IMG/VR virus record: IMGVR_UViG_3300031963_001100
Span: 1-20,947 of that record
Origin: a virus
Strand: one strand, 5' to 3'
Length of the DNA: 20,947 nucleotides
Shown: positions 4,596 to 20,839 of the stretch, one piece after another
Layout: the number at the start of each line of letters is the position of its first letter
How positions within the stretch are numbered: position 1 is the stretch's first letter
Program-made: the position numbers and the translations under genes
The notes under the pieces: generated by a model
Database searches by the model: none
The model's input: only the letters and a program-made list of their open reading frames with translations
Told to the model about the DNA's origin: nothing

Positions 4596-4610
4596 TTTAT
4601 TATATTACAC
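4596..4610 (-). promoter_or_regulatory. TGTAAT-type start-site element before the long fibre gene
   Basis: Read on the minus strand this is GTGTAATATAATAAA, directly followed by the ATG at 4595. It starts one base after the stop codon of the upstream gene. There is no Shine-Dalgarno sequence. The same element stands before five other genes here (see 6076, 9806, 11686, 14715 and 19645). It contains a perfect TATAAT. Confidence 0.5.
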
Positions 4611-4611
4611 G

Positions 4612-6075
4612 TTAAAAGGTTGGAGATGATATTATTACGTCAAGATTGTATTTATTACTTATTGAAATTGGCGCGGAAAATAATATAGTTGCAGATGTAG
4701 TTGATGGAGATCCAGATATCATCGTCGCGTACCAATCTGCATCATTATTAATAGCTCCAACTCCAGTATATCTAATATTTGCGCTTATTATCGGAGAACC
4801 ACTAACAGTATTATAAGTAATAGTTTTATAATATTCTCCATAATTTAATTGATACGATTTAGAATTATAAACATATTCATTTATAACTTCATATCCGTTT
4901 TGACGTAAATCTTTAAAATATCCAGTGCCATTAACATTAATATTATATCCTTGAACATCAATAGCTTGAGAAGGAATTGTTGTTCCAATTCCAATTGAAC
5001 TTCCACTTTTTAAATAAAATATACCACTACCTGCTGATCCAGAATTATAATAAACATTTGAGCCAGAATTGTAATAAGTCTTTGAAGTAGATTTAGCGTA
5101 TAAATTTCCTTCAAGATCTATGTACGCGCCAGTTCTTATTCTTAGATAAGAGTTGTTATTAAATAATTCATAAGAGCCACTATTAAAATCATTGTGAGAA
5201 GACGCGCTAAAAGATTGATAAGCTCCATTTAAAACTGAAAGATTATTAGATCCAGAAACATATAAATTATTAGAAAAGATTCCGCTGCCGCTGAAATTAA
5301 ATAAACTTGACGCGCCAAGATTTAAAGTTTGATTTACGATTAAATTTTCAGCTTCACCAGTTCTATTTATTTTTGTATATCCAGAAAGATTAGTATCAGT
5401 TAAGAAATCTTGTTTAGATCCAGAAAAAATTACCGCTCCAGAAGTAAAATTAACTCCACTATTTAAATTAACATTTCCACTGAAATTACTTTGTCCAGCA
5501 GTATATACAGTTCCAGTAAAATTTGAAGTTCCAGAAAATCTATTATCACCTACAAAATAATTTACAGTAGATCCTCCTGCGCTAACTCCAAATACGTTAT
5601 TTCCTAATAAATTAGTATTTCCATTAAAGGTAGATGTACTAACTCCTACGGAGAAAGTATTATTAACAACTACTGCGCTGTTAAAAGTGGCAGTATCAGT
5701 AAAAGTAGTTGGATCATTAAATGTCGCCGCTCCATCTGAAGTAAAATTTCCAGATACAGTTAAATTGTTTTGAAAATATCCTGTTTTAAAAGTCGATATT
5801 CCTGAAATCAAAGAATTGCCGCTAACAATTAAATTTTTATATCCCGTAATATCTCCAGAGAATTTCGCGCCTGAATAAAAAAGAGCTTCTTGTATAAAAG
5901 TAACATCATTAGCAAAACTAACGTCGCCGCTAAAATTAGCTTGCCCAGTAACAAATAAATCTTTATATATAGATACAGAATTTGCGCCAGTTACGCCAAC
6001 TCCTAAAAATCCCGTAACATAGCTTCCGATTTCTCCAGATTTTATCTGTTTAAGACCTATTAAACTCTGCGGCAT
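4612..6075 (-). CDS. Tail-fibre-like structural protein, paralogue of 13551-14714
   Basis: A 487-residue protein made of short beta-type repeats centred on FSG, NFSG and VSG, of the kind that builds phage fibre or baseplate shafts. Its first 22 residues (MPQSLIGLKQ... to ...YVTG) are identical to those of the fibre-like gene at 13551-14714. The central part (around FNDPTTFTDTATFNS, then SVGVS, NNVFGVSAGGST and NRFSG) also aligns with that paralogue. The C-terminal 100 residues (from about YFKDLRQNGYEVI) are unique and end in a compact, tyrosine-rich domain. The shared N-terminus probably anchors the fibre to the virion and the unique C-terminus probably binds a partner or receptor. It follows a terminator by 24 bases, so it should start its own transcript, which likely also covers the long fibre gene 17 bases downstream. 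Exact location in the virion is unknown. Confidence 0.75.
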   Translation of the reverse strand: MPQSLIGLKQIKSGEIGSYVTGFLGVGVTGANSVSIYKDLFVTGQANFSGDVSFANDVTFIQEALFYSGAKFSGDITGYKNLIVSGNSLISGISTFKTGYFQNNLTVSGNFTSDGAATFNDPTTFTDTATFNSAVVVNNTFSVGVSTSTFNGNTNLLGNNVFGVSAGGSTVNYFVGDNRFSGTSNFTGTVYTAGQSNFSGNVNLNSGVNFTSGAVIFSGSKQDFLTDTNLSGYTKINRTGEAENLIVNQTLNLGASSLFNFSGSGIFSNNLYVSGSNNLSVLNGAYQSFSASSHNDFNSGSYELFNNNSYLRIRTGAYIDLEGNLYAKSTSKTYYNSGSNVYYNSGSAGSGIFYLKSGSSIGIGTTIPSQAIDVQGYNINVNGTGYFKDLRQNGYEVINEYVYNSKSYQLNYGEYYKTITYNTVSGSPIISANIRYTGVGAINNDADWYATMISGSPSTTSATILFSAPISISNKYNLDVIISSPTF

Positions 6076-6089
6076 AAATTAAATTACAC
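6076..6089 (-). promoter_or_regulatory. TGTAAT-type start-site element before the fibre gene
   Basis: The minus strand reads GTGTAATTTAATTT, then ATG at 6075. Only about 24 bases separate the U-tract of the terminator at 6100-6128 from the ATG, so this stretch is where a fresh promoter would have to be if the terminator works. No Shine-Dalgarno sequence is present. Confidence 0.5.
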
Positions 6090-6099
6090 TATATATATG

Positions 6100-6128
6100 A
6101 AAAAAGGCCATCATTTCTGACAGCCTTT
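6100..6128 (-). terminator. Rho-independent terminator after the small gene 6150-6497
   Basis: Read on the minus strand, an AAAGGCTGTCA arm pairs with TGATGGCCTTT around a GAAA tetraloop. The stem is 11 pairs with two G-U wobbles and runs into a T-run that overlaps its 3' side. It lies 21 bases after the stop of the upstream gene, which is the usual place. Confidence 0.8.
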
Positions 6129-6149
6129 CATTTTTGTTTTGATATTTTA

Positions 6150-6497
6150 TTATCTTCCTTCTGCGAGAATTTTTAAAACCTCTTTACTAACATTTTGTTG
6201 AGGCTTAGAAACTTCAGGAGGTCTCTTGTAACCATTAACGTGCTTTCTAAATTCAGACATTAAAGTTTTCTTTAATAGAGAAGTATTGTCAATAGGAACC
6301 AATCCTAACTTTGAAGCGTGACTCCAAAGATCTGTTTTATTCATTTCGTTGATCTTGTCTGTATACGCTTCTTCGTCCATCGTTCCATATTTACTCAACC
6401 CTTCGTCGCCCCAAATTTGATCTAATGTAGAAGGAATAAACTTTTCTTCCATACCATGAGATTGAGATAATTCTTCTAACTTTTTCTTCTTAGCCAT
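6150..6497 (-). CDS. Small charged protein with a SAP/HeH-like C-terminal motif
   Basis: A 115-residue protein with a lysine-rich start (MAKKKKLEEL), an acidic middle and a stretch at about residues 53-86 (NKTDLWSHASKLGLVPID, then SLLKKTLMSEFRKH). That stretch resembles the short helix-extended-helix fold of SAP, HeH or Rho-N type nucleic-acid-binding domains. It sits between the major capsid gene and the fibre genes and is flanked by a terminator on each side, so it looks like a single-gene transcription unit. The leader has no Shine-Dalgarno sequence but is full of TATAAATA and TATAAT. A head or DNA-packaging accessory role, or a regulatory DNA-binding role, would fit the position. I do not recognise a named family, so the function is open. 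Confidence 0.7.
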   Translation of the reverse strand: MAKKKKLEELSQSHGMEEKFIPSTLDQIWGDEGLSKYGTMDEEAYTDKINEMNKTDLWSHASKLGLVPIDNTSLLKKTLMSEFRKHVNGYKRPPEVSKPQQNVSKEVLKILAEGR

Positions 6498-6504
6498 ACA
6501 AATT

Positions 6505-6527
6505 ATTATAGAATATTTATATTTATA
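6505..6527 (-). promoter_or_regulatory. Candidate promoter with two overlapping TATAAATA boxes
   Basis: The minus strand carries TATAAATA at 6527-6520 and again at 6521-6514, followed by TATAAT at 6510-6505. All lie in the 33-base gap between a strong terminator and the ATG at 6497. TATAAATA is the consensus of T4 late promoters, which are read by a phage sigma-like protein. The AT-rich composition makes chance matches easier, so this rests on position as well as sequence. Confidence 0.45.
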
Positions 6528-6530
6528 AAC

Positions 6531-6562
6531 AAAAAAAATCGGGGAGGATTTCTCCTCCCCGA
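6531..6562 (-). terminator. Strong rho-independent terminator after the major capsid gene
   Basis: A perfect 10-pair stem (TCGGGGAGGA with TCCTCCCCGA) closes a four-base loop at 6539-6562. On the minus strand it is followed by eight T residues (6538-6531). It begins 18 bases after the capsid stop codon. This is the clearest terminator in the window and should end the long head-gene transcript. Confidence 0.93.
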
Positions 6563-6580
6563 CTGTGAAAACACTAACTA

Positions 6581-7702
6581 TTAGGCATCAACTAGTGAGA
6601 TACCAACAATTGCACGGGCATCCAAGCACATACGGCCTTCCTCAATGAATCCGTAGAAGCCAGTCTTATCAATTCTGTTATTGTTGAATTGATCGTCTGG
6701 GATAGCAGTGAATGTGCCACCGCTCTCAGCTTGGCGAGCGACAGGGCGAACGAATGCACCCTTGCTGTTGTCGATACCGATAATAACTTCATCAGCAGCA
6801 GCAGAGAAGTCAGCATTTCCAGCGACATTTCCGAGGTTGTTTGAACCTGCGAGGAATGTGCCGAACAATGTGTTGTACTTCTTGCTAACACCGAGTTCAA
6901 GAAGCTCAGTGAGGTTGATTCCGAAGATTGAACCAGCACCAGCAGCGCGATAGATTTCCTCGCGAACACCTTCAGGCAATTGAGGAGCAGAAGCGCCTGT
7001 GGTCAATGGAGTGAAGGAGAAAGAGCGGATACGTTGCATAACCTCTGGAGAGAGGTATAGATCAGTTACGCCCTTGCTGAATGGAGCGGCAGGAGTACCA
7101 CCATCGAAGTCAGAATTGATGCGCTTCATGCGGGTCATAAGAGCGTTCAAATCAGCCAATCCGAATGAGGTTGTAGCACTTGTGATAACGTGCTTTAGAG
7201 CAGATCCACCTTTTGGAGTGGTAGAGGCAGTGGCGAGAGCCTTCAAGAGAACGGCCCAAGCATTGCGCTCTTGCTTAACGAGAACTTCGTTAGACATACG
7301 CTCTACAGCCTTGCTAACTACATCCAAGCGTGAACGACGAGCGTAACGCTTCATGAAGCTAACAGCACTATCCAAACGATAAGTTTGGAACTTGACTTCT
7401 CCGCCACCAGTTACTTCTGAGGTTGGAAGACCACCAGCAGTATTTTGGGCGTAGACAGTAACATATCCAGAATTCTCATTGTAATAGAGGTCGAGAGGAT
7501 ATGAAGGAGCGTCATCTTCGTCATACTCAGCATCGGTATAAACAGTGCTGGCAGTACCAGCCTTGTATAGAAGTTGTTGTACGACAGGTCCGAGGAAAGC
7601 GGCGAAAGCCTCTTGAGCTTCTCTGGCAACGATAGCGTTACGAGAACCCATAGCCTTGATTAGCTCAACTTGCTCAGGTGTATTCTTTAGTTTAATTTTC
7701 AT
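6581..7702 (-). CDS. Major capsid protein, HK97-like fold (predicted)
   Basis: A 373-residue protein in the position expected of the major capsid protein, after the protease-scaffold and decoration genes and before a strong terminator. It opens with a helical N-arm (residues 1-50). An acidic, tyrosine-rich segment (about 54-85, TDAEYDEDDAPSYPLDLYYN) follows and could form the E-loop. A long basic helix (about 115-155, FMKRYARRSRLDVVSKAVER) resembles the spine helix. The tail ends in a capsid-like GFIEEGRMCLDARAIVGISL. The gene uses many C- and G-ending codons, unlike most of its neighbours, and has a clear AAGGA ribosome site 9 bases before the ATG. Both fit very high expression. About 415 copies per T=7 head is usual for such proteins, but the head size here is unknown. 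Family assignment is by context and sequence style. Confidence 0.85.
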   Translation of the reverse strand: MKIKLKNTPEQVELIKAMGSRNAIVAREAQEAFAAFLGPVVQQLLYKAGTASTVYTDAEYDEDDAPSYPLDLYYNENSGYVTVYAQNTAGGLPTSEVTGGGEVKFQTYRLDSAVSFMKRYARRSRLDVVSKAVERMSNEVLVKQERNAWAVLLKALATASTTPKGGSALKHVITSATTSFGLADLNALMTRMKRINSDFDGGTPAAPFSKGVTDLYLSPEVMQRIRSFSFTPLTTGASAPQLPEGVREEIYRAAGAGSIFGINLTELLELGVSKKYNTLFGTFLAGSNNLGNVAGNADFSAAADEVIIGIDNSKGAFVRPVARQAESGGTFTAIPDDQFNNNRIDKTGFYGFIEEGRMCLDARAIVGISLVDA

Positions 7703-7711
7703 ATTATAAAT

Positions 7712-7716
7712 TCCTT
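7712..7716 (-). promoter_or_regulatory. Shine-Dalgarno AAGGA of the major capsid gene
   Basis: AAGGA lies 9 bases before the ATG at 7702, in the context TTAAGGAATTTATAATATG. The decoration gene has the same site at the same spacing, while most other minus-strand genes in the window lack one. Confidence 0.7.
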
Positions 7717-7739
7717 AAATTTAATTGTTAGCTTGTTAA

Positions 7740-8309
7740 TTAGACTGATGTCTCAAGGAATGAGGTGAAGTTTAGGAGGGTTAATGTGCAGCCGTTTGCA
7801 TCAGCAGCACCCAAACAGATACCAACTTGCTTGGCTCCGCTTACGCTTCCGATTGAAAGCTCGCCAGCGCCAGAAGTGTGAATCTTTGAACCAGCGGCAG
7901 GAGTTCCGTTGATACCGCTCAAGAGGAACATACCCTTGGTGGCGATAGGAACGGTTTGTCCAGGAATTACAGCGCCGATTTCAACGGCCTTGCGTGGGTT
8001 AAACTTGAGAGCTTCACCATTTTCGTCAAGATTCTTAACGTCTTGAAGAAGAATGCCGATTGGAGTATCAGTTTGTCCACAGAGTTCAACTGTGGCAGGA
8101 ACATTAAATCTTGGAGAAGTAACGTTGCCGAAAGAAGCTCCGATATCAGAATCTAAAGTCAACTCATCAGTTGCTTTCCATCCTGATTGAATTTTAACTA
8201 CAGCGCCTTTGGTGGCGATACTGGCAGTAGTTAGGTCTGCGGTTTTGAATGCGAACAATCCGATTACATCGTGTTCGTTAACTTGTCTAAATGGTCTTAG
8301 TGTAGCCAT
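7740..8309 (-). CDS. Probable head decoration / capsid-stabilising protein
   Basis: A 189-residue, beta-rich, Gly/Ala/Thr-rich protein directly upstream of the major capsid gene, the usual place for a decoration or cement protein. Its segments (GLFAFKTADLTTASIATKGAVVKIQSGW, written here only in part as ATKGAVVKIQSGW, then GILLQDVKN and VIPGQTVPIATKGMFLLSG) recall small phage capsid-stabilising proteins that fold as beta-barrels. Like the capsid gene it has elevated G+C, many G/C-ending codons and an AAGGA site 9 bases before its ATG. It therefore shares the high-expression signature of a stoichiometric head component. No enzymatic motif is visible. A minor tail or fibre-base role cannot be excluded. 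Confidence 0.6.
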   Translation of the reverse strand: MATLRPFRQVNEHDVIGLFAFKTADLTTASIATKGAVVKIQSGWKATDELTLDSDIGASFGNVTSPRFNVPATVELCGQTDTPIGILLQDVKNLDENGEALKFNPRKAVEIGAVIPGQTVPIATKGMFLLSGINGTPAAGSKIHTSGAGELSIGSVSGAKQVGICLGAADANGCTLTLLNFTSFLETSV

Positions 8310-8318
8310 ATTATTTTT

Positions 8319-8323
8319 TCCTT
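8319..8323 (-). promoter_or_regulatory. Shine-Dalgarno AAGGA of the decoration gene
   Basis: AAGGA lies 9 bases before the ATG at 8309, in the context TATAAGGAAAAAATAATATG. This closely matches the leader of the capsid gene. Confidence 0.7.
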
Positions 8324-8341
8324 ATATTTTATTTGTTAGTT

Positions 8342-9805
8342 TTATAGTTGGACTTCAAATCCTTCTACGCTGAAAGCCTTCTTGTATTTTTCAACAAGAC
8401 TTTCAGAAGCTTGACTGGAGTTGGGAATAGCACTATCGCGGACGACAGCGTTATCGATGGCATTTTCAACAGCATCCGAAACTTCGGAAGCGTTGGCGGA
8501 AGCCATTACCTTACCCTTTTCCGATACCTCTTCGGCTACTTTAGCAGGTTTCTTACCCTTTAGTAGCACACCCATTTTCTTCTTATAAGCAGCAAAAGCG
8601 TCTTCGCCCATTTCAGAAATATCACCAGCGATAATTTCGCGCTCTTCAGAAGAAAGTTCAAACTCTCCATCGAATTCAGTCATTCTTTGGTTAAATAGTT
8701 CTTGCTTTGCCTTAACTTCATTTTCCTTTTGAAGTTCAGCTAAAACTTGATTAATTTTTTCGTATTCAGCCTTTAGAGCCTCAAGCTCTTTAGTTAAGGC
8801 TTCGGATTTTTCGAGAGAAGCTTTAACAGCTTCTTGAGATTCATTTTTCTCAATTTCAAATTGATCTGAAGCCTTTTTGATTTCTTCAGAAATGAAATCA
8901 GAGATAACTGATGCGGAAACCTGCTTTAGGTTTTCATCAGTAATATCGGAAATTGCATTAATCTTCATAACTTTATTATTATTATTATCTACAGTATTTT
9001 TATTATTTTGTGAAATATCTTTTTGTTCTACTGCCTCAGAAGCTTCAACTTTCATGTCTTGTTCAGGCTTGATAGTTAAAATTCCTTTGACATCAGCGGC
9101 TGGAGTTTCGGTAATACCAACTCCAAGAGGAACAACTTTATCAATGATTTTGCGGTATATTTTTTTACCGCCATCCATTGTTCCGCTACCACCGAAAGCT
9201 TTTAAATAACCTTTATATTTTTCGATTTGATCTGGATCAGAAATAACTTCAGCAGTAGCTATATTCTTTTCGTTATTATCTAGTAATAATAGGTTATAAT
9301 TGGAAAATCCTAATTCCCAAGAAGTAGAAATAGATAGATAATCTTCGCTTGAAGGATCTGAAGAATTTTCTACTAATTTAGTAATTCTTGGATTAACGAC
9401 TTTCCACAACACGCCGCCAAGAGTAATATTAAATGGGCCGTCCATTTTAGAAACTTCTTCTTCACTTAATGGGCGATCTGTGCCAAATTCGCTAAAACCA
9501 GCTTTTAAAATTGTGCCAATAACTTTTTCTCTGTTATGTTCGATATTAATTGGTTTATTTATAAAGTTTTTATAAATGTCAACGGCTGTTTTAGTATCAA
9601 TAACATCGTTGTTTCTATTAACTCTGTTAGCAACACACGCATTAAATGCGATTGGTAAAAGATCAATATTTGAAGCAGAATCTACTTCTGGAACAAACGC
9701 GCCGATCTTTTCTAAACTTGCTAGTGCTAGATTGAAATCAAAGTCTTCTGAATGAAGAGTTTTAATCTCGGAGCTAAAAATTGATTGAAATGGAAAATCG
9801 TTCAT
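8342..9805 (-). CDS. Head maturation protease fused to a scaffold
   Basis: A 487-residue protein in two parts. Residues 1 to about 240 look like a phage prohead serine protease. A conserved histidine stands in INIEHNREKVIGTI (H90), and a serine pair in SEDYLSISTSWELGFS (S158, S160) is placed like the catalytic serine of S77/S78-type proteases. The part closes with PLGVGITETPAADVKG (226-241). Residues 250-285 form a flexible Asn/Glu-rich linker. Residues about 290-370 form a long predicted coiled coil (EKSEALTKELEALKAEYEK), typical of scaffolds, and the C-terminus (about 465-487) is a basic-hydrophobic helix that could touch the capsid protein. Protease-scaffold fusions are known in several phages. 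The position between the mosaic proteins and the decoration and capsid genes fits. The protease call rests on motif spacing that I read by eye. An internal start at M280 is discussed separately. Confidence 0.75.
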   Translation of the reverse strand: MNDFPFQSIFSSEIKTLHSEDFDFNLALASLEKIGAFVPEVDSASNIDLLPIAFNACVANRVNRNNDVIDTKTAVDIYKNFINKPINIEHNREKVIGTILKAGFSEFGTDRPLSEEEVSKMDGPFNITLGGVLWKVVNPRITKLVENSSDPSSEDYLSISTSWELGFSNYNLLLLDNNEKNIATAEVISDPDQIEKYKGYLKAFGGSGTMDGGKKIYRKIIDKVVPLGVGITETPAADVKGILTIKPEQDMKVEASEAVEQKDISQNNKNTVDNNNNKVMKINAISDITDENLKQVSASVISDFISEEIKKASDQFEIEKNESQEAVKASLEKSEALTKELEALKAEYEKINQVLAELQKENEVKAKQELFNQRMTEFDGEFELSSEEREIIAGDISEMGEDAFAAYKKKMGVLLKGKKPAKVAEEVSEKGKVMASANASEVSDAVENAIDNAVVRDSAIPNSSQASESLVEKYKKAFSVEGFEVQL

Positions 9806-9823
9806 AAAATTTTATAATTACAT
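9806..9823 (-). promoter_or_regulatory. TGTAAT-type start-site element before the protease-scaffold gene
   Basis: The minus strand reads ATGTAATTATAAAATTTT, then ATG at 9805. It is a less exact copy of the element found before the other genes. No Shine-Dalgarno sequence is present. Confidence 0.4.
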
Positions 9824-9833
9824 TTACAATAAA

Positions 9834-11024
9834 TCACCATTGAACTTGATCGTATCTTTTTTGATACTCTTTTTCGTCTTCTGAAAACCCGTTGCCTCCA
9901 CCATGCTCTTTTTCTTCTGGATTAATTTGTTCAGTAATTTTTTTAAGTTTTTTAAGAACTTCTGGGGAAAGAGTAGAAGGATTAAATTTTTTAGAGTCAT
10001 ATTTTCTTAATTGATCTTTTGTTTTAGTTAATACATCGCCTACTTTATAAGTAGCGCCGTCATTAGTAACTTTATATTTTACTACTTTGCCCATTTTATT
10101 AGGTAATTCTTCTACTGATTGAACGATTCCTTCGCTTCCGTAATGATCACAAGAAGGATTAACGTTCTTAACCATTGCGCCATTTTCATAATCGTCTTCT
10201 TCATCTTGCATTTCGCCATTATCATTAGCATTAGAATATTCATCTTCTTTATTAAACATAACGTAATTATGAATCGTCAACATATAATCTTCTGTAATAG
10301 CAATTTTGCCTTGCAGCCATGATTCTGTTAAATTTTCTTTAACATTAGGATCTTCTATATTGTTTAAGATTGCGGTTACATGAGCTTGTATAGATCTTAA
10401 AGATCCAATTGACATTCCAAGAAAATCACCTTTATATTCGTCCAACTCTTCTGAATCATCTTCTACTTCTACTTCTTGAGCTTTAGATAAATCAGGCCAA
10501 ATTTTAAGTAATTCAGATTGATCACAGAAAGTTACTCCATCCCATTCGACTTCTTCAGCTTGAGCTTTCTTTAAAGCGTCTTGTTTTGGAAAATCTTTAT
10601 CTCCAGGTTGGGCAGGTTTATAATTTTTGCCCATTTTTTCTTTTTTCTTTTGGATATTATACCAAAGACCTTTATTAGCTTCTGACTCTAAATTAATATC
10701 AACTTCTTCTGAAGCTTTAACTGGTGCGCCAGCTCTCCATTGATAACATGACCAATATTTTGCTTTCCACTTTGGTCCAGGATTTTTATCGCATCCATGT
10801 CTTGCTCTAAAACTTTTTCTTCTGGCAGGATCGTCTCTTTTGATTTCCATGTTTGGATCACCAAAATTAACTTTTACGACATTGCCCTTTTCGTTCTTTA
10901 CATAAACAGAAAACTTCTTAGGGCCACCGGGAGTTCTAAAAGGCTTATTTAAAGTCTTTTTCTCTTTGGCGGCTAAAGATATTTGATTAGAAAAATCTAA
11001 TTCTATTGGATTATTATAGTTCAT
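9834..11024 (-). CDS. Mosaic protein of recurring phage domains, function unknown
   Basis: A 396-residue, mostly acidic protein. Residues about 28-98 form a basic, Cys-containing module (KKFSVYVKNEKGNVVKVNFG, then RRKSFRARHGCD and AKYWSCYQW). It recurs in many uncultured aquatic phages, and its two cysteines plus histidine could bind metal. Residues about 199-256 (DFLGMSIGSLRSIQAHVTAI, then ESWLQGKIAITEDYMLTIHNY) form a second recurring helical module. Residues about 285-342 (SCDHYGSEGIVQSVEELP, then KYKVTNDGATYKVGDVLTKT) look like a small SH3/KOW-type beta domain. The start ATG lies inside the end of the preceding gene (11-base overlap, 11014-11024), which implies coupled translation. The position between portal and protease-scaffold suggests a head-associated or internal core protein. 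I recognise the modules as recurrent but cannot give a tested function. Confidence 0.65.
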   Translation of the reverse strand: MNYNNPIELDFSNQISLAAKEKKTLNKPFRTPGGPKKFSVYVKNEKGNVVKVNFGDPNMEIKRDDPARRKSFRARHGCDKNPGPKWKAKYWSCYQWRAGAPVKASEEVDINLESEANKGLWYNIQKKKEKMGKNYKPAQPGDKDFPKQDALKKAQAEEVEWDGVTFCDQSELLKIWPDLSKAQEVEVEDDSEELDEYKGDFLGMSIGSLRSIQAHVTAILNNIEDPNVKENLTESWLQGKIAITEDYMLTIHNYVMFNKEDEYSNANDNGEMQDEEDDYENGAMVKNVNPSCDHYGSEGIVQSVEELPNKMGKVVKYKVTNDGATYKVGDVLTKTKDQLRKYDSKKFNPSTLSPEVLKKLKKITEQINPEEKEHGGGNGFSEDEKEYQKRYDQVQW

Positions 11025-11685: not shown

Positions 11686-11705
11686 TTATTTTTATTATAT
11701 TACAC
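11686..11705 (-). promoter_or_regulatory. TGTAAT-type start-site element before the gene at 11685
   Basis: The minus strand reads GTGTAATATAATAAAAATAA, then ATG. The first 15 bases are identical to the element at 4596-4610. It fills the gap after the portal gene's stop, and no Shine-Dalgarno sequence is present. Confidence 0.5.
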
Positions 11706-11716
11706 TAATTTATTAA

Positions 11717-13549
11717 TTATGATTTACTATTTAATAAAATTGCCGCCATAAATGGATCAAGTCCATGCTTAACTGCAATATCATTTACTTCATTTATTCT
11801 ATTTGCATTAGAATCTACTGGATTATTACAGTATTTTTCGACATTAACATCCCAAGACTCGACATTTTCATTTGCGATAATTATTTTAGAAATTTCTTCG
11901 GCAATTTGCTTTTGATTATCATTTAGCTTTTTCTTGTTATGCTTTTTCTTTAAAAATCCTTCTACTGAGCCTTGAAGCTGTTGGAATTTAAGAATGTTTT
12001 CTTTAATCTTTATAAAGCTATAATTATCTTCTTGAGCTTTAACTTGCTGCTTAATCTTTGTTGTTCCTGCTGGTCTTCCTGCTTCAGGACCAGATTTAGC
12101 TCCACCAATAATTGGAGAGTAAAGCCCTTCGTCTCTTAAATCTTTAGTTATTCTTTGAGACTCTAAAGAAGCTTCTTGATCGGGAAGAACTCCAGTTTCG
12201 ATAGCTTTGAGAGTTTCTTCTGGAGTAAGAACGCCAAGCTCCAAAAGTCTTGTATAAACACGATTTTGAGTAGTGTTATCTTTCAAGTTAACTTCTTCAA
12301 AATAAGGAATTGGATATCCTCTAAATCCAAGAGCTTTTGATATTCTCTTTATTTCAGGAATCAAAAAGTCATTCAAGAAAGCTTGGCGACCTTGATTTAA
12401 TCTTGCCAAAAATACGTCAATCTTCGCTTCTTGATTAGAGAATTTTTCTCCTCCGACAAGGATATTATTAAGACCAAGATTAATATCATTATTAACTGTT
12501 TCATATTTTTTAGGATCTAATAAATCAGCAATCTTAGGAACTACGAATTCAGCTTTTGTAGTATAATCAGCAATAAGAACGCGACCAACAGATTCATTTT
12601 CAAATAATTTTTGCATCGACTCAAGATTCTTTTGATTAATGCCGCCCTTTTCAGGTTCAGCACCCATTGTAACTAACAAAATAGCTTGTTGCATTGTACG
12701 AGCAATAGCCATATCCATTTTCTTTAACTCAGCCTTAAAGTTAATATCCTCAAGAACTGGATATCCCATTGGAACTGCAAAAGGCTCGTAATCTTGTTTC
12801 TTATAAAATACAGACTTAAATCTTTCTGGATTAAGAGAAATTCTCAATGAGCCAATCTTAGAAGTCTTAATAAGACGCTGAGTTTCAGCATCAAAACTAT
12901 CAAAAATTTGTTGATCTTCTTCTGTGGTAATTGTTCTTAATCTACTTAATTCATATTCGCTAAGAACTTTATAATATTGACCTGCAAGATAAGAAGCGCC
13001 GCTAGAAAATTGAATGTCAACAGGATTTATAATAACATAACGAACTGGAATTTTAACACCAGAAAGACTTAATGGACCTCTTCCTAATAATTGAACTAAT
13101 CTATTTGTATCTTCTTCTTGGATAATTCCTTCAAACCTATAAATGAAAACATTTCCAGAACGATAATATTCTCTAAAAAATCTATCTTGAAAACTCCAAA
13201 GATTAATTTTATTAAATAAAGCCTCGAAAAAGTCTCTTGCTTTTTTAGTTCCTCCTTGAAAATATAAATTACTAACAGAAAATTCCGTCATCAAATCAAT
13301 GACGTTTCTAAATTGAGCGAAATTATAATAAGCTTTTTGACACAAAATAGTAGCATCTTTAATGTCAATTGTACTTCTATCAGCAAAATTAGTGCGAGTA
13401 TATTTAAATGGCATTAAGCCATCATCAATATTCTTAAACTTATCTGTTCTTTCTATAGATCCAGCCTTGTTTCTTCTTGTGCTTGTAGAAGAAGAAGCTG
13501 TCGAAACCATTAAAGGCTCTGTCTCTTGAGATTTAAGTTTTGATTTCAT
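11717..13549 (-). CDS. Portal protein
   Basis: A 610-residue protein one gene downstream of the large terminase. Portal-like features in order: a basic, disordered N-terminus (1-40); helices around residues 70-135 with YNFAQFRNVIDLMTEFSVSN and WSFQDRFFREYYRSGNVFIY; a beta-rich section with a VRYVIINPVDIQFSSG stretch; a long helix (ELKKMDMAIARTMQQAILLV) that would line the channel; and a Lys/Asn-rich C-terminal extension with a coiled-coil look. The portal forms the twelve-part ring through which the terminase pumps DNA. The length fits myovirus and siphovirus portals. The ATG follows the stop of the fibre-like gene by one base and lacks its own Shine-Dalgarno site, so it is probably translated by coupling with that gene. 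Confidence 0.85.
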   Translation of the reverse strand: MKSKLKSQETEPLMVSTASSSTSTRRNKAGSIERTDKFKNIDDGLMPFKYTRTNFADRSTIDIKDATILCQKAYYNFAQFRNVIDLMTEFSVSNLYFQGGTKKARDFFEALFNKINLWSFQDRFFREYYRSGNVFIYRFEGIIQEEDTNRLVQLLGRGPLSLSGVKIPVRYVIINPVDIQFSSGASYLAGQYYKVLSEYELSRLRTITTEEDQQIFDSFDAETQRLIKTSKIGSLRISLNPERFKSVFYKKQDYEPFAVPMGYPVLEDINFKAELKKMDMAIARTMQQAILLVTMGAEPEKGGINQKNLESMQKLFENESVGRVLIADYTTKAEFVVPKIADLLDPKKYETVNNDINLGLNNILVGGEKFSNQEAKIDVFLARLNQGRQAFLNDFLIPEIKRISKALGFRGYPIPYFEEVNLKDNTTQNRVYTRLLELGVLTPEETLKAIETGVLPDQEASLESQRITKDLRDEGLYSPIIGGAKSGPEAGRPAGTTKIKQQVKAQEDNYSFIKIKENILKFQQLQGSVEGFLKKKHNKKKLNDNQKQIAEEISKIIIANENVESWDVNVEKYCNNPVDSNANRINEVNDIAVKHGLDPFMAAILLNSKS

Positions 13550-13550
13550 T

Positions 13551-14714
13551 TTAAGCTATCCACTTTCTTATCGCCAATACATGATAAGTTACACCATTTA
13601 CAGTTAATTGCTGAACATATAATTGACCAGTTGGAACAGTCGCAGAAGCTGGAATAGATCCATCGTTCTGAGTATGTATACCTGTTTCAATATTAAATTT
13701 TGCGCCGCTCTTAATGGTAAAATTACAATCTTTATATAAAGTTTCTTTCGATCCACTCTTTATTTCTAAAAATGAACCGCTATTTAAATTAATATATGAT
13801 TCATTGTAATCTGAAACGCCACTTAATTGAGCTACATCAGCATCTGATAATTGAAGAGAATTTGCTCTAAGTATTAAATCGTTTGAAACGCCAGATATAT
13901 AAACGTCATTATAGAAAAATGACTGACCATTATTAGTAAATGAAGCACTAGTTGAAATTCCTAAAGAAGAAGTTACATTAACTGATGCGCCAGTTGTATT
14001 TCCTAATAAAGCTACGTCTCCTGAAAAAGTAGTCTTAGTAGCGAACGCTTGACCAGTACCGCTAAAAATAATGTTGCCGCTGTTAAATGATACTCCGCTA
14101 TTAAAGTTTGTTATTCCTGAGAAATAATTTGTTCCTGCGTAGTAATTAGTTCCAGAAAAATTAGCTCCTCCAGAAAAAATATTATTTCCAATTAAATATG
14201 TGTTTGTCGTTCCTCCTGCGCTTGTTCCAAGGCGTACATCGCCTAAAGATTGGAAATTTCCGCTAAAAACAGTGTTAACAACTCCGACGCTTAGAGTATC
14301 AGTTACAACTATTGGATCATTAAAAGTAGATGTTGAATTAAATGTCGCCGCCGCATCAAATCTAGAAGTTCCAGAAAATCCAGCAGCGCCAGATACAGTC
14401 AATACATCTTCTAGAATAACTGGATTATCAAAAGAAACGTCGTTATCAAACCTAGCAACTCCGCTAACGTTTAAAGTTCCTAGGCCAGTTACATTTCCAG
14501 AAACTAATAATCCAGAAGCGATTTGAAAATCTTCTCTAGCATAAGAAGTGTCTTTTAGATCAGCCGCTCCACTCACTGTAAGAGAGTTATTAAAGACAGA
14601 AGGCTTGGAAGTATAAACAGTAGCTCCCGTGCTTGATACACCTAAAGCTCCAGTAACATAACTTCCAATCTCGCCAGACTTAATCTGCTTTAAACCTATA
14701 AGACTTTGCGGCAT
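13551..14714 (-). CDS. Fibre-like structural protein between terminase and portal, paralogue of 4612-6075
   Basis: A 387-residue beta-repeat protein (FSG, VSG and NFSG motifs) whose first 22 residues are identical to the fibre protein at 4612-6075 and whose middle aligns with it (compare DPIVVTDTLSVGV, GTSAGGTTNTYLIG and NNIFSGGANFSGT). The C-terminus (from about residue 340, KFNIETGIHTQNDG to VLAIRKWIA) is unlike the paralogue and probably defines its partner. It is unusual to find such a gene between the large terminase and the portal. Its stop is one base before the portal ATG, so it is tied to portal translation. It may be a second fibre, a whisker, or a head-fibre protein such as some phages carry on the capsid. 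The beta-repeat fold is visible; the exact role is inference. Confidence 0.7.
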   Translation of the reverse strand: MPQSLIGLKQIKSGEIGSYVTGALGVSSTGATVYTSKPSVFNNSLTVSGAADLKDTSYAREDFQIASGLLVSGNVTGLGTLNVSGVARFDNDVSFDNPVILEDVLTVSGAAGFSGTSRFDAAATFNSTSTFNDPIVVTDTLSVGVVNTVFSGNFQSLGDVRLGTSAGGTTNTYLIGNNIFSGGANFSGTNYYAGTNYFSGITNFNSGVSFNSGNIIFSGTGQAFATKTTFSGDVALLGNTTGASVNVTSSLGISTSASFTNNGQSFFYNDVYISGVSNDLILRANSLQLSDADVAQLSGVSDYNESYINLNSGSFLEIKSGSKETLYKDCNFTIKSGAKFNIETGIHTQNDGSIPASATVPTGQLYVQQLTVNGVTYHVLAIRKWIA

Positions 14715-14729
14715 TTTTATTAATTACAC
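14715..14729 (-). promoter_or_regulatory. TGTAAT-type start-site element before the fibre-like gene
   Basis: The minus strand reads GTGTAATTAATAAAA, then ATG at 14714. The preceding AAAAAGG overlaps it, so a weak ribosome site is also possible (AAGG, 13 bases before the ATG). It lies in the 19-base gap after the terminase stop. Confidence 0.45.
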
Positions 14730-14733
14730 CTTT

Positions 14734-16560
14734 TTATATCATTCTTGGCGAAAAAGTAGAGACTTCTTTTATTTTTGATGATGCTTCTATCTCAAAATAA
14801 AACTTTGTCGCCCAGTTTGCTAACATTAATGTAGTATAATTATCTTTTCTAGCTCTATTAGGAGACATGTCTCTTTTTAGATGTTGAGGTAGATCAAAGG
14901 ACTGAGATCCTTTTGCAGAAGATTTTACTTCGATTAACGCGCATTGCTTTTTCGTTTGATATATAATATTATCTTGGAATTCAATGAAATCTAAAATAGA
15001 TTCATGACCGACGTTATCTAAATTAACGTGACAAGAACTTTGTATATCGAAAGCTTCGTTATTAGCAGAAGTTCTAGAAGCAAACCAAACTTTTTTATGA
15101 TCAATACAAGCTTGTAAATAGTTATTTGCTTTGCGAATAAAATCTGTTGTAAAGTTTTGCTTAAAACAAATATGTCCTTTTTCTAAAGTATATTCTCTTG
15201 CAGCTTTACGAGTCATATTTATATACTCATTGCCTTCAAGAGATGTATCAGCTTCGAAGAATCCTAAATTAATATTAGACTTCTTAAATAATTCGCTTTC
15301 TCTTGCGCTATCAATAAACTGATAACCAGCATTATCAATGCATATCATTACAATATTAAAATTTGTCATTAAATAATACAAATAACTAATATGAGCTTTT
15401 AAATTTCCACCAGCAACTGCATATCCATGAACCAACGTTCCTTGTTTACGTTCTTCGTCTAATTCGAAAACAGACATAGCGAAATAGTCAGAACTTGGGC
15501 TATTAGAAAAGCTTGGATCGATTCCTAATATATATTTAACATTAGACTTTCCTTTAATTAAAGTATATGGAGCTTCTCCATCAGGAATTGTGCATTCATG
15601 CATCTTCTTCGCGCTAAAATATCCATCGCTACCATCTGTAAATTGGGCGCAATATTCTCTTAAAAATGAACTATGAGAAGTGCCGCCGTTTTGAGCTTCC
15701 TCAATAACGGTATTATCAATCATGTGTGTTGGCAAAGCTTCATAACTCATTTGAGCTATAAAGTATTTAGCGTCGTTCTCTTCATTGGAATAAATTTTAT
15801 CATTCCATTCTTTATAAGTTTTATATAAATTCTCAAATGTAAAAGAAGCTGAAGAAAGAGCAATCATTTTTGAGGTATTTGGAAATACCATTCTTTCTTC
15901 TTCTTTCATGAGTCCATCTTTAATCAACTTGTCTTCAATTTCTCGTATTTCCATACGCTCTTTCATGTTTTGAGGAGCGACAAGGAATGGCATCAATACA
16001 TTTTTAATAATATCTTCTGGGAGCAGTAGATATTCGTCTAATAAAAGGATATTGGCGCGAAAACCACGAATCTTTTCTCCGTTGAGAGGAATGGCAGTAA
16101 TGGAACCTCCATTAATTTGCCATTCATATTGATCGTTACGTTTAGCTTTCACGCCAAAAGCTTGTTGAAGAAGTTCGCCGCCTTTTGAATCAACTATCTT
16201 CTCTAAATAATTAAAAATAAAACGCGCAGTTCTAAAAGTTGGTCCAGCAATTAATATTTTAGTATTAGGCTCAAATACGCATTGAAGAAAACAAAATACA
16301 CTGCCTAAAAAGCTTTTGCCGCAACCACGGCCAAGAACATTCAAACAAAAATTACGATTCATCATACCTTTGAGAATCATTTCTTGGTATGGCGCAAGTT
16401 TAATTCCTGACAACAACTCAGTTGTAAATCCAATATTATTTCTTAGAAATTTAGCTAAAGTAACGCGAGCTTCTTTATCATCAAGTTCTCCTTTAAGAAG
16501 TTTATACTCTTCATTTAAATCAGGAAATTCTGCTTTATATTTATCGGGACAGTAAATCAT
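14734..16560 (-). CDS. terL: Terminase large subunit (DNA-packaging ATPase and nuclease)
   Basis: A 608-residue protein with both terminase domains. ATPase part: adenine-binding YQE at 58-60; Walker A GRGCGKS at 77-83; Walker B ILLLDE at 171-176; coupling motif SSAS at 236-239. Nuclease part (RNase H-like): GIDPSFS with D348, CIDNAG with D409, and a C-terminal acidic residue, probably D573, in NRARKDNYTTLML. The length is normal for a T4-like large terminase. The protein docks on the portal, hydrolyses ATP to pump DNA into the prohead and cuts the concatemer. Its ATG overlaps the nuclease gene's TGA (ATGA at 16560-16557), so the two are translationally coupled. No intein or frameshift is visible. 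Confidence 0.93.
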   Translation of the reverse strand: MIYCPDKYKAEFPDLNEEYKLLKGELDDKEARVTLAKFLRNNIGFTTELLSGIKLAPYQEMILKGMMNRNFCLNVLGRGCGKSFLGSVFCFLQCVFEPNTKILIAGPTFRTARFIFNYLEKIVDSKGGELLQQAFGVKAKRNDQYEWQINGGSITAIPLNGEKIRGFRANILLLDEYLLLPEDIIKNVLMPFLVAPQNMKERMEIREIEDKLIKDGLMKEEERMVFPNTSKMIALSSASFTFENLYKTYKEWNDKIYSNEENDAKYFIAQMSYEALPTHMIDNTVIEEAQNGGTSHSSFLREYCAQFTDGSDGYFSAKKMHECTIPDGEAPYTLIKGKSNVKYILGIDPSFSNSPSSDYFAMSVFELDEERKQGTLVHGYAVAGGNLKAHISYLYYLMTNFNIVMICIDNAGYQFIDSARESELFKKSNINLGFFEADTSLEGNEYINMTRKAAREYTLEKGHICFKQNFTTDFIRKANNYLQACIDHKKVWFASRTSANNEAFDIQSSCHVNLDNVGHESILDFIEFQDNIIYQTKKQCALIEVKSSAKGSQSFDLPQHLKRDMSPNRARKDNYTTLMLANWATKFYFEIEASSKIKEVSTFSPRMI

Positions 16561-17486
16561 AACTTCTTTATATCATATAATAACTGAAGATCGTAATTTA
16601 ATGATATATCTTTATTAACAAAGATTTTCTCTATTACTCTTACGCATTCTTCTCGACCATCTACAAATAAAAATTGCACGTTCTTATATGTAGTCATTAA
16701 CGTCCGAACTTTATGAAATATAAAATCAGGATTTACTTTTGTATTTCTAGCTATATACGGAAGATAGTTAAATCTTAAACACGTTGCCAAATCATTCTCA
16801 ACTACCACAACAATAGAACTATTGTTCTCTGCGGCTCTTTCTATCTCCCGGCAAAATCTATCGTATCCTGCGGCCAAAGTTCCAATAAAATCTTTTAACG
16901 ACTTTCTTTCGATAAAAGTATTTCCAGATATGTCTAAATTCTCGAAACAATAATCTCCGAAATCTAATTTCTTTACTTGAGTTAACCTAGGAAACTCTAA
17001 AGGCTTTTGCTCTCTTGTGTCTACATAAATACAATAGTTATCAACTATGTTGTCAATTAAAAGTAAGTCTTTTGGATTTAAAAACTTCTTTTCAAAGCCG
17101 TTATTATCACAGTAATCATAATAATCACCAATAACAGTTTCTAAAAAGTTAATACTAGGAATTCCAGAAGACTTTAACTCGACTTGAGAAAATGGATATA
17201 TAGATTTCTTTTTCTCTTGACGTTTTTGCAACAATCCTTTGCAATAATCTCCAACTATTTTAGGATCTGAAGACTTCGCCCACTTTTTAAAGTTTATCTT
17301 TGAATTAAAGTCAGACTCGAAATACTGATCTTTATTCTTGAACTCAATAACCTCACCAGTTAATAAATCCTTGCGAGGATAATAATGCTGATAGTAATCT
17401 GATACTGAGATTTTATGAGATTTTAAATGAGCGTGTAAACTTTTGTCATTATCAAAATCTTTATTACAGAATTTACAATTAACCAT
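16557..17486 (-). CDS. C2H2 zinc finger plus ERCC4-type nuclease
   Basis: A 309-residue protein. Residues 4-24 form a classical C2H2 finger (C4, C7, H20, H24; spacing 2-12-3). Residues about 152-245 carry the ERCC4/XPF-type nuclease core: DTREQ at 156-160, GDY at 177-179, and ERKSLKD at 193-199 with the catalytic ERK...D. A hydrophobic strand SIVVVVEND follows. Such enzymes cut branched or flapped DNA, so a likely role is resolving replication or recombination structures before or during packaging. The gene overlaps the terminase by 4 bases and its neighbour upstream by 8 bases, so it is produced together with the packaging motor. It has a clear AGGAG site 7 bases before the ATG. A homing or free-standing mobile nuclease is less likely because of the tight coupling. 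Confidence 0.85.
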   Translation of the reverse strand: MVNCKFCNKDFDNDKSLHAHLKSHKISVSDYYQHYYPRKDLLTGEVIEFKNKDQYFESDFNSKINFKKWAKSSDPKIVGDYCKGLLQKRQEKKKSIYPFSQVELKSSGIPSINFLETVIGDYYDYCDNNGFEKKFLNPKDLLLIDNIVDNYCIYVDTREQKPLEFPRLTQVKKLDFGDYCFENLDISGNTFIERKSLKDFIGTLAAGYDRFCREIERAAENNSSIVVVVENDLATCLRFNYLPYIARNTKVNPDFIFHKVRTLMTTYKNVQFLFVDGREECVRVIEKIFVNKDISLNYDLQLLYDIKKL

Positions 17487-18558
17487 TTAATATCTCCTGT
17501 TTAGAAATGCCTAGTATACGGCACTTTAATTCGTCCATACCTTCTAGCTTTGTAATTTCTTCGTCCAACGTTCTCTTTCGCATTTCTGCTAATTTGATCA
17601 TCTTTACTCTAGACTCTTCTTCTTTCCAAGCTTGAATAAGATTTACGATACTAGCATTTTGCTTGATTTGACTGCCTAATCTATCAGAACGTTTTGTTTT
17701 TAGATCATTAACAAGTTTTTGTTGACGACTGACGCATTGATTATATTCTTGCTGCGCCGTATTAATAGATTCAACAAGACCCATTGAAATTCTAGCGTCG
17801 TTATCTGCGGCTCCTTCTAATAATCTCTGCAACTTTTCTACTCTTCGCTGAATGCTAGAAGCAATAACAACTTCAGAAGACAATATAATATATTGATCTA
17901 CTTCTTCTTCTGTAAGATCGTTTTTATCGTATGTATAACGAACAAAAGAGCTTTCAAAAAGATCTCTATCAACATTACTGTCATAAGAATTAATTTGATG
18001 CACGAATCTATAAGTATTGATATACTTTAATAGGCATTCTAAATCTTTTTTATGTCTAGAGTTTAAACTTTCGCGCTTTAAATTTAAATCATATACATAT
18101 CTATTAACTTTATTAATCGCTTTATCTAAAGAACGAGGAGACACATAATCTTCTTGCGCGATTTCTTCTTGTTCTTTGTAAATATCTTCTGGAAGTATAT
18201 TCTCAGAAATAAATTTGGCGACAATTCTAGTTTCATTGTTCAAATTCGACAATGTAGGATTATCAAATATGATTCGTGTTATTTCTAACGCCTTCATTGT
18301 TTTGGCGTTATTTAAAATGAACTGTTTATTTTCGTCTGTTAAATCTGGCGCTTTTTTAGACTTGTATTCATGAGTGCCTCTAGCTTTTAGACTTCTTTTC
18401 GCTAGAAACGCTTGAACATATTTACCTTCTTTACAACGGCCATCTAAATCAGGAGAATTTGGATACGCTAATCTAATCAATTCTATCAAAGAAGGAGGAT
18501 CATCAGGACGATTGTTCCATTCGTTAACGATAATATTTTGCTGTTCTTCTGTTAACAT
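17479..18558 (-). CDS. Two helix-turn-helix-like repeats plus coiled coil; candidate small terminase
   Basis: A 359-residue protein, Lys/Glu-rich and mostly helical. Residues 2-60 (LTEEQQNIIVNEW, then SLIELIRLAYP, then KYVQAFLAKRSLKARG) and residues 73-120 (LTDENKQFILNNAKTMKALE, then ITRIIFDNP, then ETRIVAKFI) look like two copies of one helix-turn-helix-type domain. Residues about 135-345 contain long helices with heptad-like spacing (RVEKLQRLLEG, EYNQCVSRQQKLVNDLKTK), likely to oligomerise. DNA-binding domains followed by an oligomerising coiled coil, two genes before the large terminase, match the plan of a small terminase subunit. It is longer than most small terminases (about 150-250 residues), so a replication or regulatory protein is also possible. 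It starts one base after the sigma-like gene's stop, without a ribosome site. Confidence 0.6.
   Translation of the reverse strand: MLTEEQQNIIVNEWNNRPDDPPSLIELIRLAYPNSPDLDGRCKEGKYVQAFLAKRSLKARGTHEYKSKKAPDLTDENKQFILNNAKTMKALEITRIIFDNPTLSNLNNETRIVAKFISENILPEDIYKEQEEIAQEDYVSPRSLDKAINKVNRYVYDLNLKRESLNSRHKKDLECLLKYINTYRFVHQINSYDSNVDRDLFESSFVRYTYDKNDLTEEEVDQYIILSSEVVIASSIQRRVEKLQRLLEGAADNDARISMGLVESINTAQQEYNQCVSRQQKLVNDLKTKRSDRLGSQIKQNASIVNLIQAWKEEESRVKMIKLAEMRKRTLDEEITKLEGMDELKCRILGISKQEILNG
17494..17498 (-). promoter_or_regulatory. Shine-Dalgarno AGGAG of the nuclease gene
   Basis: AGGAG lies 7 bases before the ATG at 17486, inside the end of the upstream gene. It is the strongest Shine-Dalgarno match on the minus strand in this window and supports the chosen start. 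Confidence 0.75.
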
Positions 18559-18559
18559 A

Positions 18560-19249
18560 TTAATAAACGTCTATTCCGCCGTTATGGATATTTATCTTTA
18601 TCTTCTTGATAATAGCTTTTTGCATGTTCTTTATCTGCTTATATCCAGGATTTCTATTTTCCTCTGTACTCTTATAGCCCATCTTTTTCGCCGCTTGTTT
18701 TTCCGTCATTTTCTTTATATACAACATTTCATACAACTTCCATTCTAAAGGCTTCAAAAACTTTTTCATTTTCTGATCTAAGTCTAATTTGAACTTATCA
18801 ATGTCAATAGAATCGCTGTAACTTGTATCAACGCAATTTTCTAAAGACTCAAAAGACACAGGCATATTTAAATTATACGCATGTTTCTTATTTTTCTCCC
18901 ATTCTTTATATAATGGGCAATTTGAGCATTGTTTTCCAAACTTCTTACATCCTTCATCAGGTTCAGCTTCAGGACATTGGGCGCAAGGTTTAATAAAATT
19001 CAGATAATTATTGCGGATTAAATTCTTTATCTGATTTGATATTATTCTATTTACCCAAGGAGCTAAAGGCTGCTTAGGATTATAAAGATGCCACTTTTTA
19101 TAAATATGAATTCTAATGATCTGTGAAACGTCATCGAAATCTATCCAAGTTAAGCTGGACAGATTCCATTTATTCCTTCTTTTACTTATTTCGTTGTCGA
19201 TTATACTTATCGACTCTTCAAAAGAAGGTGATGACTTTTTCTTTTTCAT
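18560..19249 (-). CDS. Sigma-like transcription factor with a cysteine-rich insert
   Basis: A 229-residue protein with the plan of a small sigma factor. Region 2-like: WIDFDDVSQIIRIHIYKKWH at 35-54, then PWVNRIISNQIKNLIRN at 64-80, with the acidic pair and N..N.IRN pattern used for core binding and -10 recognition. A cysteine-rich insert follows (C89, C92, C101, C108, C111), which could bind zinc. Region 4-like: residues 160-218, LEWKLYEMLYIKKMTEKQAA with a helix-turn-helix running to KQIKNMQKAIIKKIK. T4 and relatives use a small sigma-like protein (gp55) to read late promoters, and this is the likely role here. The cognate sites may be the TGTAAT-type elements in the window. It overlaps the zinc-ribbon gene by one base (TAATG). 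An alternative is a host-derived ECF-like sigma. Confidence 0.75.
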   Translation of the reverse strand: MKKKKSSPSFEESISIIDNEISKRRNKWNLSSLTWIDFDDVSQIIRIHIYKKWHLYNPKQPLAPWVNRIISNQIKNLIRNNYLNFIKPCAQCPEAEPDEGCKKFGKQCSNCPLYKEWEKNKKHAYNLNMPVSFESLENCVDTSYSDSIDIDKFKLDLDQKMKKFLKPLEWKLYEMLYIKKMTEKQAAKKMGYKSTEENRNPGYKQIKNMQKAIIKKIKINIHNGGIDVY

Positions 19250-19644
19250 TATTGGTTTTTAATCGAACCTGCTTCTCTTCTAAAGTCATCCATAGAATAT
19301 CCGCCGCCTTCATTACTTCTTTGAAATGTTTCGCCGCCTGTTGAAGATCCAATTACATTTTCTATTTTTATTTTGAAGTTATGATCTTTTTCAATTTCAA
19401 CGTCTAATTTAGAAGCGCTAAATGCCAAATCTGTATCAATTGGTGCGCCGTCATCATCTTCATCAACATCATCTTCTACAATTGGGGCGCGATATTGTGG
19501 GCGCGTAGCTTTTGGTGCTGGCTTATTTTGTACAGTTGAAGCCGCCGCGACCTTTGTATTAAAAGGGTTGCCACAATTAAAGCAGAAATTGGGCTTATTG
19601 TTAGATTCGTGCGGCGACCCACATTTTTGGCAGTATATCTTCAT
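19249..19644 (-). CDS. Zinc-ribbon protein with disordered acidic middle
   Basis: A 131-residue protein. Residues 5-24 form a zinc ribbon (C5, C8, C21, C24; CQKCGSP and CFNCGNPFN). Residues 30-80 are disordered, first basic-Ala/Pro-rich, then acidic (EDDVDEDDDGAP). Residues 82-110 look like a short beta segment (DLAFSASKLDVEIEKDHNF). The C-terminus is short (MDDFRREAG). The gene overlaps the sigma-like gene by one base and starts 17 bases after the PhoH stop. The overlap suggests the two are made in a fixed ratio and might work together, as T4 gp33 and gp55 do in late transcription. This partner role is inference; I see no sequence match to gp33. Confidence 0.65.
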   Translation of the reverse strand: MKIYCQKCGSPHESNNKPNFCFNCGNPFNTKVAAASTVQNKPAPKATRPQYRAPIVEDDVDEDDDGAPIDTDLAFSASKLDVEIEKDHNFKIKIENVIGSSTGGETFQRSNEGGGYSMDDFRREAGSIKNQ

Positions 19645-19661
19645 ATATTATTATATTACAT
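19645..19661 (-). promoter_or_regulatory. TGTAAT-type start-site element before the zinc-ribbon gene
   Basis: The minus strand reads ATGTAATATAATAATAT, then ATG at 19644. It exactly fills the gap after the PhoH stop codon. TGTAATATAATAA is identical to the elements at 4596 and 11686. Confidence 0.5.
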
Positions 19662-20810: not shown

Positions 20811-20839
20811 TTGACAGCCACCGAGTTCTAGCCCATAGT
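20811..20839 (+). promoter_or_regulatory. Sigma-70-type rightward promoter
   Basis: A perfect TTGACA (20811-20816), a 17-base spacer and CATAGT (20834-20839). Three A-tracts centred about ten bases apart (20770-20778, 20782-20787, 20790-20797) lie just upstream and would act as curved DNA or an UP element. The predicted start of transcription is close to 20846, the A of the downstream ATG. It looks like an early promoter read by host polymerase. Confidence 0.5.

Follow-up and report, generated by a model that had tools for sequence, protein, structure and literature searches.

GTGTAA(T/A) as a probable -10-like box of phage-specific late promoters abutting start codons in a family of uncultivated phages

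In a 20.9-kb stretch of phage DNA, TGTAAT followed by AT-rich sequence stands immediately before several minus-strand ATGs, in the place of a Shine-Dalgarno sequence. Does this element start transcription, or does it guide the ribosome? The sequence-only reading listed six such sites and offered both answers, a -10 box whose mRNAs would have little or no leader, or a non-canonical ribosome site. The window (the whole stretch analysed), named G000 here, comprises an entire IMG/VR record (20,947 bases) and is itself a piece of a larger uncultivated phage. Its main genes on the minus strand encode PhoH, a Zn-ribbon protein, a sigma-like protein, an unknown protein, and an ERCC4 nuclease, followed by large terminase (TerL), fibre-like, portal-like, and capsid proteins, with the portal, capsid, and decoration labels assigned from gene position and length. 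A terminase search returned at least 300 relatives in IMG/VR; 80 loci from these matches, some of them near-identical, were fetched for comparison, and relatives at about 70% terminase identity to the window were treated as the distant clade. The best cultured phages reached only about 30% identity across part of the terminase, and tblastn against INPHARED detected no cultured relatives of the portal or the sigma-like protein (cut-off for the latter, E 0.1). A sharper test set drew on 11 long records (32-137 kb) and the window, which together gave 943 non-redundant upstream regions. Genes were taken as the longest ATG ORFs with uncurated starts, the records are fragments, and the labels early and late derive from gene content.

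Inspection of the letters of the window located all six RTGTAAT strings on the minus strand, and three copies did share the exact string TGTAATATAATAA. The sites and an adjacent hairpin were as follows.

4604..4610, minus strand: putative late box GTGTAAT, 8 nt before ATG 4595 of a tail-fibre-like gene
6083..6089, minus strand: putative late box GTGTAAT, 7 nt before ATG 6075 of a fibre-like gene
6100..6128, minus strand: terminator-like hairpin AAAGGCTGTC-AGAAAT-GATGGCCTTTTTT, from inspection and a script flag
9817..9823, minus strand: ATGTAAT before ATG 9805, probably a chance match
11699..11705, minus strand: putative late box GTGTAAT, 13 nt before ATG 11685
14723..14729, minus strand: putative late box GTGTAAT, 8 nt before ATG 14714
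19655..19661, minus strand: variant ATGTAAT(ATAATAA) before ATG 19644, head of the Zn-ribbon/sigma/ERCC4/TerL operon

The exact string TGTAATWTAAT occurred four times in the window, each time on the minus strand and directly upstream of an ATG, and nowhere else. With one mismatch allowed there were 7 matches versus 3.5 expected, a count that 9 of 100 shuffles reached, and the window by itself is then not decisive. Only four to five of its genes carry a box; the capsid and decoration genes carry a Shine-Dalgarno sequence instead.

Orthologous alignments separated the six sites. The boxes at 6075, 11685, and 14714 were kept as GTGTAAT while flanks and spacing drifted, the first in L014, L021, L024, L025, and L032 and the second in nine relatives with differing flanks. 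The sequence upstream of 4595 recurred in L026, there ahead of a different tail gene. Conservation of the 19644 variant was confined to the nearest relatives, being kept as ATGTAAT in L004, L006, L018, L019, L021, and L029 and gone in L022, L025, and L031. The 9805 site was kept in no close relative, where the sequence reads taattaaattataaaataatATG, and this member of the original list is probably due to chance. The hairpin at 6100..6128 stops 10 nt upstream of the 6089 box, and its stem also forms in L024 and L025 with changed letters (aaggctatc..gatagcctttttt). Terminators were no commoner before boxes than elsewhere (14% versus 16%), so that single terminator-box arrangements such as that at 6075 are suggestive only. 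Two further observations were made in this part of the window. At 6010-6075 and 14649-14714, two different fibre-like genes share the same first 22 residues (MPQSLIGLKQIKSGEIGSYVTG), each with a GTGTAAT box. At 6498-6564 a strong terminator (12 pairs) is followed by TATAATAA a short way upstream of ATG 6497, lacking the GTG but kept in relatives; this element is perhaps another promoter variant.

Comparison across the relatives established that the element is real. TGTAAT at -25..-8 of ATG ORFs was counted 141 times in the 80 loci versus 7.9 expected, a figure that includes some near-identical loci. When 6-mers at -30..-4 of deduplicated ATG-ORF starts were ranked by enrichment, blind to the motif, GTGTAA came first in both clades (28 versus 0.8 expected in close relatives, 89 versus 2.7 in the distant clade), and the Shine-Dalgarno 6-mers AAAGGA and AAGGAA trailed it in the distant clade at 37-40 versus about 6 expected. 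Among the 943 upstream regions, GTGTAA ended 8-14 nt before the ATG in 57, far above the mean of 1.8 in 200 dinucleotide shuffles (maximum 6). The TGTAAT core that had been proposed from the window held roughly; the core conserved in relatives was GTGTAA(T/A) rather than TGTAATATAAT, and the ATAATAA tail was a preference of the close clade only. Outside GTGTAAW, 98 clustered sites had AT-rich flanks with no further strong conservation, and no column reached significance as a -35 element; a T-rich -35 partner seen in the first alignment disappeared once related sites were clustered. The T4 late box TATAAAT was unenriched at -25..-8 (5 versus 6.1 expected).

The placement of the box was equally distinctive. 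At 8-17 nt before the 943 starts GTGTAA was found 64 times, its reverse complement TTACAC once, and AATGTG three times. This asymmetry shows that the box is no palindrome and argues against a repressor operator. The spacing between box and ATG was variable: it broke off sharply below about 7 nt, had a long upstream tail reaching about 30 nt, and was most often 7 or 8 nt after GTGTAAW. The restriction to genes preceded by a gap, noticed originally in the window, extended to the whole family, with a box at 4 of 369 genes where the gap was 5 nt or less versus 35 of 163 where it was 12-40 nt. Divergent gene pairs carried one box per side, each adjoining its own start. In distant relatives the box downstream of TerL precedes the portal gene. 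The close clade has a fibre gene inserted between these two, and there it is the fibre gene (ATG 14714 in the window) that the box precedes. Since the box moves from one gene to the other, it appears tied to the place where a transcript starts and not to a particular gene.

We further compared Shine-Dalgarno use. None of the 64 genes with an abutting late box carried such a sequence, in line with the original claim that the box replaces it, though the box itself fills part of that space. A Shine-Dalgarno sequence was present in 6 of 19 genes with the late box 18-40 nt away (about a third), in 4 of 81 with an abutting early promoter of the type described below, and in 25% of operon-internal genes. 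These counts indicated that the phage uses such initiation within operons and behind some longer leaders, and omits it at abutting promoters.

Outside the structural region a different signal was enriched, TTGAC followed by TAnnnT 16-18 nt downstream. This sigma70-type class, which the sequence-only reading had missed, is the strongest support for reading the box as a promoter. TTGAC-N16..18-TAnnnT with the -10 ending 5-10 nt before the ATG occurred in 81 of the 943 regions versus 0.47 in shuffles (maximum 3), the pattern having been picked after 6-mer enrichment. The distance from -10 to ATG had its mode at exactly 6 nt (37 genes). Since 6 nt is the canonical distance from the -10 hexamer to +1, the A of the ATG should be the first base of these transcripts. 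The two signals divided the genome between them. In the three longest records, GTGTAA lay 8-40 nt upstream of 29 of 126 structural-region genes versus 16 of 373 elsewhere, and TTGAC..TAnnnT was found at 2 of 126 versus 54 of 373; the Fisher p values (6e-9 and 1e-5 respectively) are descriptive, as the region limits were drawn after gene content and sites were seen. The close clade, whose instances were found later, showed the same geometry with C or T allowed as the first base of the -10, and the window has one at its edge.

20811..20839, plus strand: putative early-type promoter TTGACA-N17-CATAGT, 6 nt before ATG 20846
20846..20947, plus strand: start of a divergently transcribed ORF, 34 codons open, running off the window

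The same geometry was present in L004, L014, L019, L025, and L031, and the L004 copy of the ORF has 76 codons. A separate set of early promoters (G002:80130, 82929, 84876, 86234, and others) has an AACTAT..TATAAT spacer motif and a weaker -35, and still lies 5-10 nt from the ATG.

A candidate reader of the late box is encoded in the window itself.

18560..19249, minus strand: phage sigma factor, candidate late-box reader (Pfam PF04542, E 6e-6, above the cut-off)

The protein has a region 2, a Cys-rich insert in which C89, C92, C101, and C111 are invariant, and a region-4-like C-terminus. Region 2 was matched in 30 of 30 relatives (E 0.01), and the sigma search gave 56 locus matches, of which some come from overlapping stretches of a single record. 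The structural model is of modest confidence (pTM 0.38), and its best fold matches were ECF and other sigma factors; residues 152-223 of this model superposed on the -35-binding domain of SigD with Z 9.1 and rmsd 1.7 over 62 residues, and Pfam returned no region-4 match. Of the sigma-region-2 genes, the window-type sigma alone occurred in every one of the seven long records tested; G003, the record richest in boxes, has no other. Recognition of the late box by this sigma is therefore likely. The assignment is not unique, because G001, G002, and G004 carry further sigma-region-2 genes (G001:129849-130061, G001:10051-10248, G002:70568-70771, G002:41412-41618, and G004:29207-29422); a third class of promoter may exist in some members. 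In distant relatives the sigma operon itself usually lacked GTGTAA and often had TATAAT instead, which would fit earlier expression by a host sigma. No RpoB homologue or other multi-subunit RNA polymerase gene was found in the long records; a search for a single-subunit polymerase gave no match, and its control was silent as well.

From the enrichment, strand-specificity, and position of the box, its separation by gene class, the lack of Shine-Dalgarno and -35 sequences, and the conservation of the sigma gene, we infer a transcription start site, a late timing, recognition by the sigma at 18560-19249, and leaderless translation. GTGTAA(T/A) very probably serves as the -10-like element in late promoters specific to the phage; these are probably read by a phage sigma and would yield leaderless or near-leaderless mRNA. 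RNA polymerase, most likely host core with the phage sigma, would open the AT-rich DNA beside the box and start RNA about 7 nt downstream of it. Because the box commonly lies 7-8 nt from the ATG, the 5' end of the mRNA would fall at the AUG or within 0-5 nt of it, and such an mRNA would be translated leaderlessly or with too little leader to hold a Shine-Dalgarno sequence. A more distant box would give rise to a leader, and about a third of the genes with such a box carry a Shine-Dalgarno sequence. The other, early or middle genes would be expressed from host-type sigma70 promoters equally tight against the ATG. As both classes abut the start codon, leaderless expression may be a genome-wide strategy with the late box as its second tier.

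Of the two answers offered at the outset, the -10 box is thus backed by strand-specificity, confinement to gaps, the lack of abutting Shine-Dalgarno sequences, the lower limit near 7 nt, and an independent promoter class with the same abutting geometry. The opposite answer, that the box acts within the mRNA to guide translation initiation, as a non-canonical ribosome-binding or standby site, accounts for its nearness to the ATG and for its taking the place of the Shine-Dalgarno sequence. However, the distance is unfixed above its sharp lower limit, operon-internal genes do without the box, the box is concentrated in the structural half whereas the other half has sigma70 promoters in the same geometry, and about a third of the genes with room have a Shine-Dalgarno sequence between box and ATG. 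We therefore regard a ribosome site as very unlikely. Compositional chance in AT-rich spacers, for which the one-mismatch count of the window might speak, is refuted: the motif is far more frequent at these positions than in shuffles, in strand controls, or elsewhere in the same genomes, which leaves this account practically no probability.

Two other accounts leave the box a promoter. It could be of host type, with sigma70 or another host sigma reading TATAAT-like DNA and GTGTAA serving as a variant or extended -10, since the close-clade string TGTAATATAATAA contains TATAAT and sigma70 promoters with good -35 boxes occur in the same genomes. Yet GTGTAA is invariant between clades and the TATAAT downstream of it is unconserved, the late region has almost no TTGAC..TAnnnT, and a sigma70 -10 element would rarely have G as its second base; a host promoter is improbable on these grounds. 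A stronger competitor, though clearly less probable than the main reading, is a late promoter with functional short leaders of 5-15 nt, translated by an AT-rich, S1-type or host-specific mechanism without Shine-Dalgarno sequences and hence not truly leaderless. About a fifth of the box genes (19 of 83) have 18-40 nt between box and ATG, as this would allow, but the commonest spacings of 7 and 8 nt leave a leader of only 0-2 nt if RNA starts about 7 nt past the box. The phage-specific late promoter with leaderless or near-leaderless mRNA remains the reading that we prefer.

Known systems resemble this arrangement in part. T4 late promoters have a box at the -10 position and no -35 conservation (PMC2988020). 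Like the T4 late system (gp55 sigma, gp33, gp45 clamp), the family has a phage-encoded sigma-family protein and a putative late box that lies where a -10 would, in AT-rich DNA and with no conserved -35; unlike it, the family has GTGTAAW instead of an 8-bp TATA box, and its sigma carries a Cys-rich insert and appears to retain a region-4-like domain. In phages phiEco32 and 7-11, a phage sigma drives the structural-gene promoters (consensus TAATGTATA; TGATGT) and host sigma70 the early part (PMC4331800). The family likewise has its structural genes on one promoter type and other genes on the sigma70 type, the link to a sigma being probable here, but the core is GTGTAAW and not TAATGTATA, and tblastn against INPHARED detected no portal or sigma kinship. 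The abutting sigma70-type geometry (5-10 nt) was absent from 50-kb stretches of T4, SPO1, phiEco32, and HTVC008M. Middle and late transcripts of Thermus phage phiYS40 are reported to be leaderless (PMC3594737), and in the same scan TTGAC..TAnnnT ended 6-9 nt before the ATG at 5 among 58 of its genes. phiYS40 thus works as a positive control for inferring leaderlessness from geometry. Its promoters adjoin the ATG as the predicted ones do here; unlike the family, it has no GTGTAA box abutting starts, and the proteins searched show no relationship between the two. In Deinococcus-Thermus and Actinobacteria, leaderless genes have a -10 TAnnnT a few bp before the ATG (PMC12340547, PMC3160421), as does the first tier here with TTGAC..TAnnnT at 6 nt; those are cellular genes under a housekeeping sigma, whereas the family has a second, phage-specific box. 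We found nothing in the literature describing GTGTAAT or TGTAAT as a phage promoter.

Hints to the host were examined as well. A 77-kb contig of the family (L102, NZWA01000041.1) lies in a Flavobacteriales MAG and has GTGTAA boxes 14-20 nt before ATGs; it is possibly misbinned, because the promoters of the family look sigma70-like and not Bacteroidota-type. The Bacteroidota promoter TAnnTTTG showed no excess over its reverse control. An actinobacterial host was considered through WhiB, which is common in actinophages, and no WhiB was found. In the late region of L098 (12463-14816, or G003:32463-34816), three consecutive secreted proteins have PEP-CTERM-like C-termini. Phages do not usually have such termini, and a host resembling Verrucomicrobiota or Planctomycetota may be hinted at here.

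Phage sigmas with their own late boxes (T4, phiEco32, SPO1) and leaderless phage mRNAs (phiYS40) are already known. Here the two features appear side by side, in both expression classes and across hundreds of uncultivated contigs whose cultured relatives reach at most about 30% terminase identity. On balance we lean towards a phage family that does without leaders in both phases, with host-type promoters most often exactly 6 nt before early ATGs and, late, a Cys-insert sigma reading a new -10-only GTGTAAW box that lies 7-8 nt ahead of structural genes. For annotation, GTGTAAW or TTGAC..TAnnnT at a nearly fixed distance can serve to mark start codons and the heads of operons. If the proposal is true, leaderless translation would be the main initiation mode of the family at operon heads, and the ribosome of the host, or one modified by the phage, would favour leaderless translation. 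This raises the question of whether the phage depends on leaderless translation in its host or imposes it.
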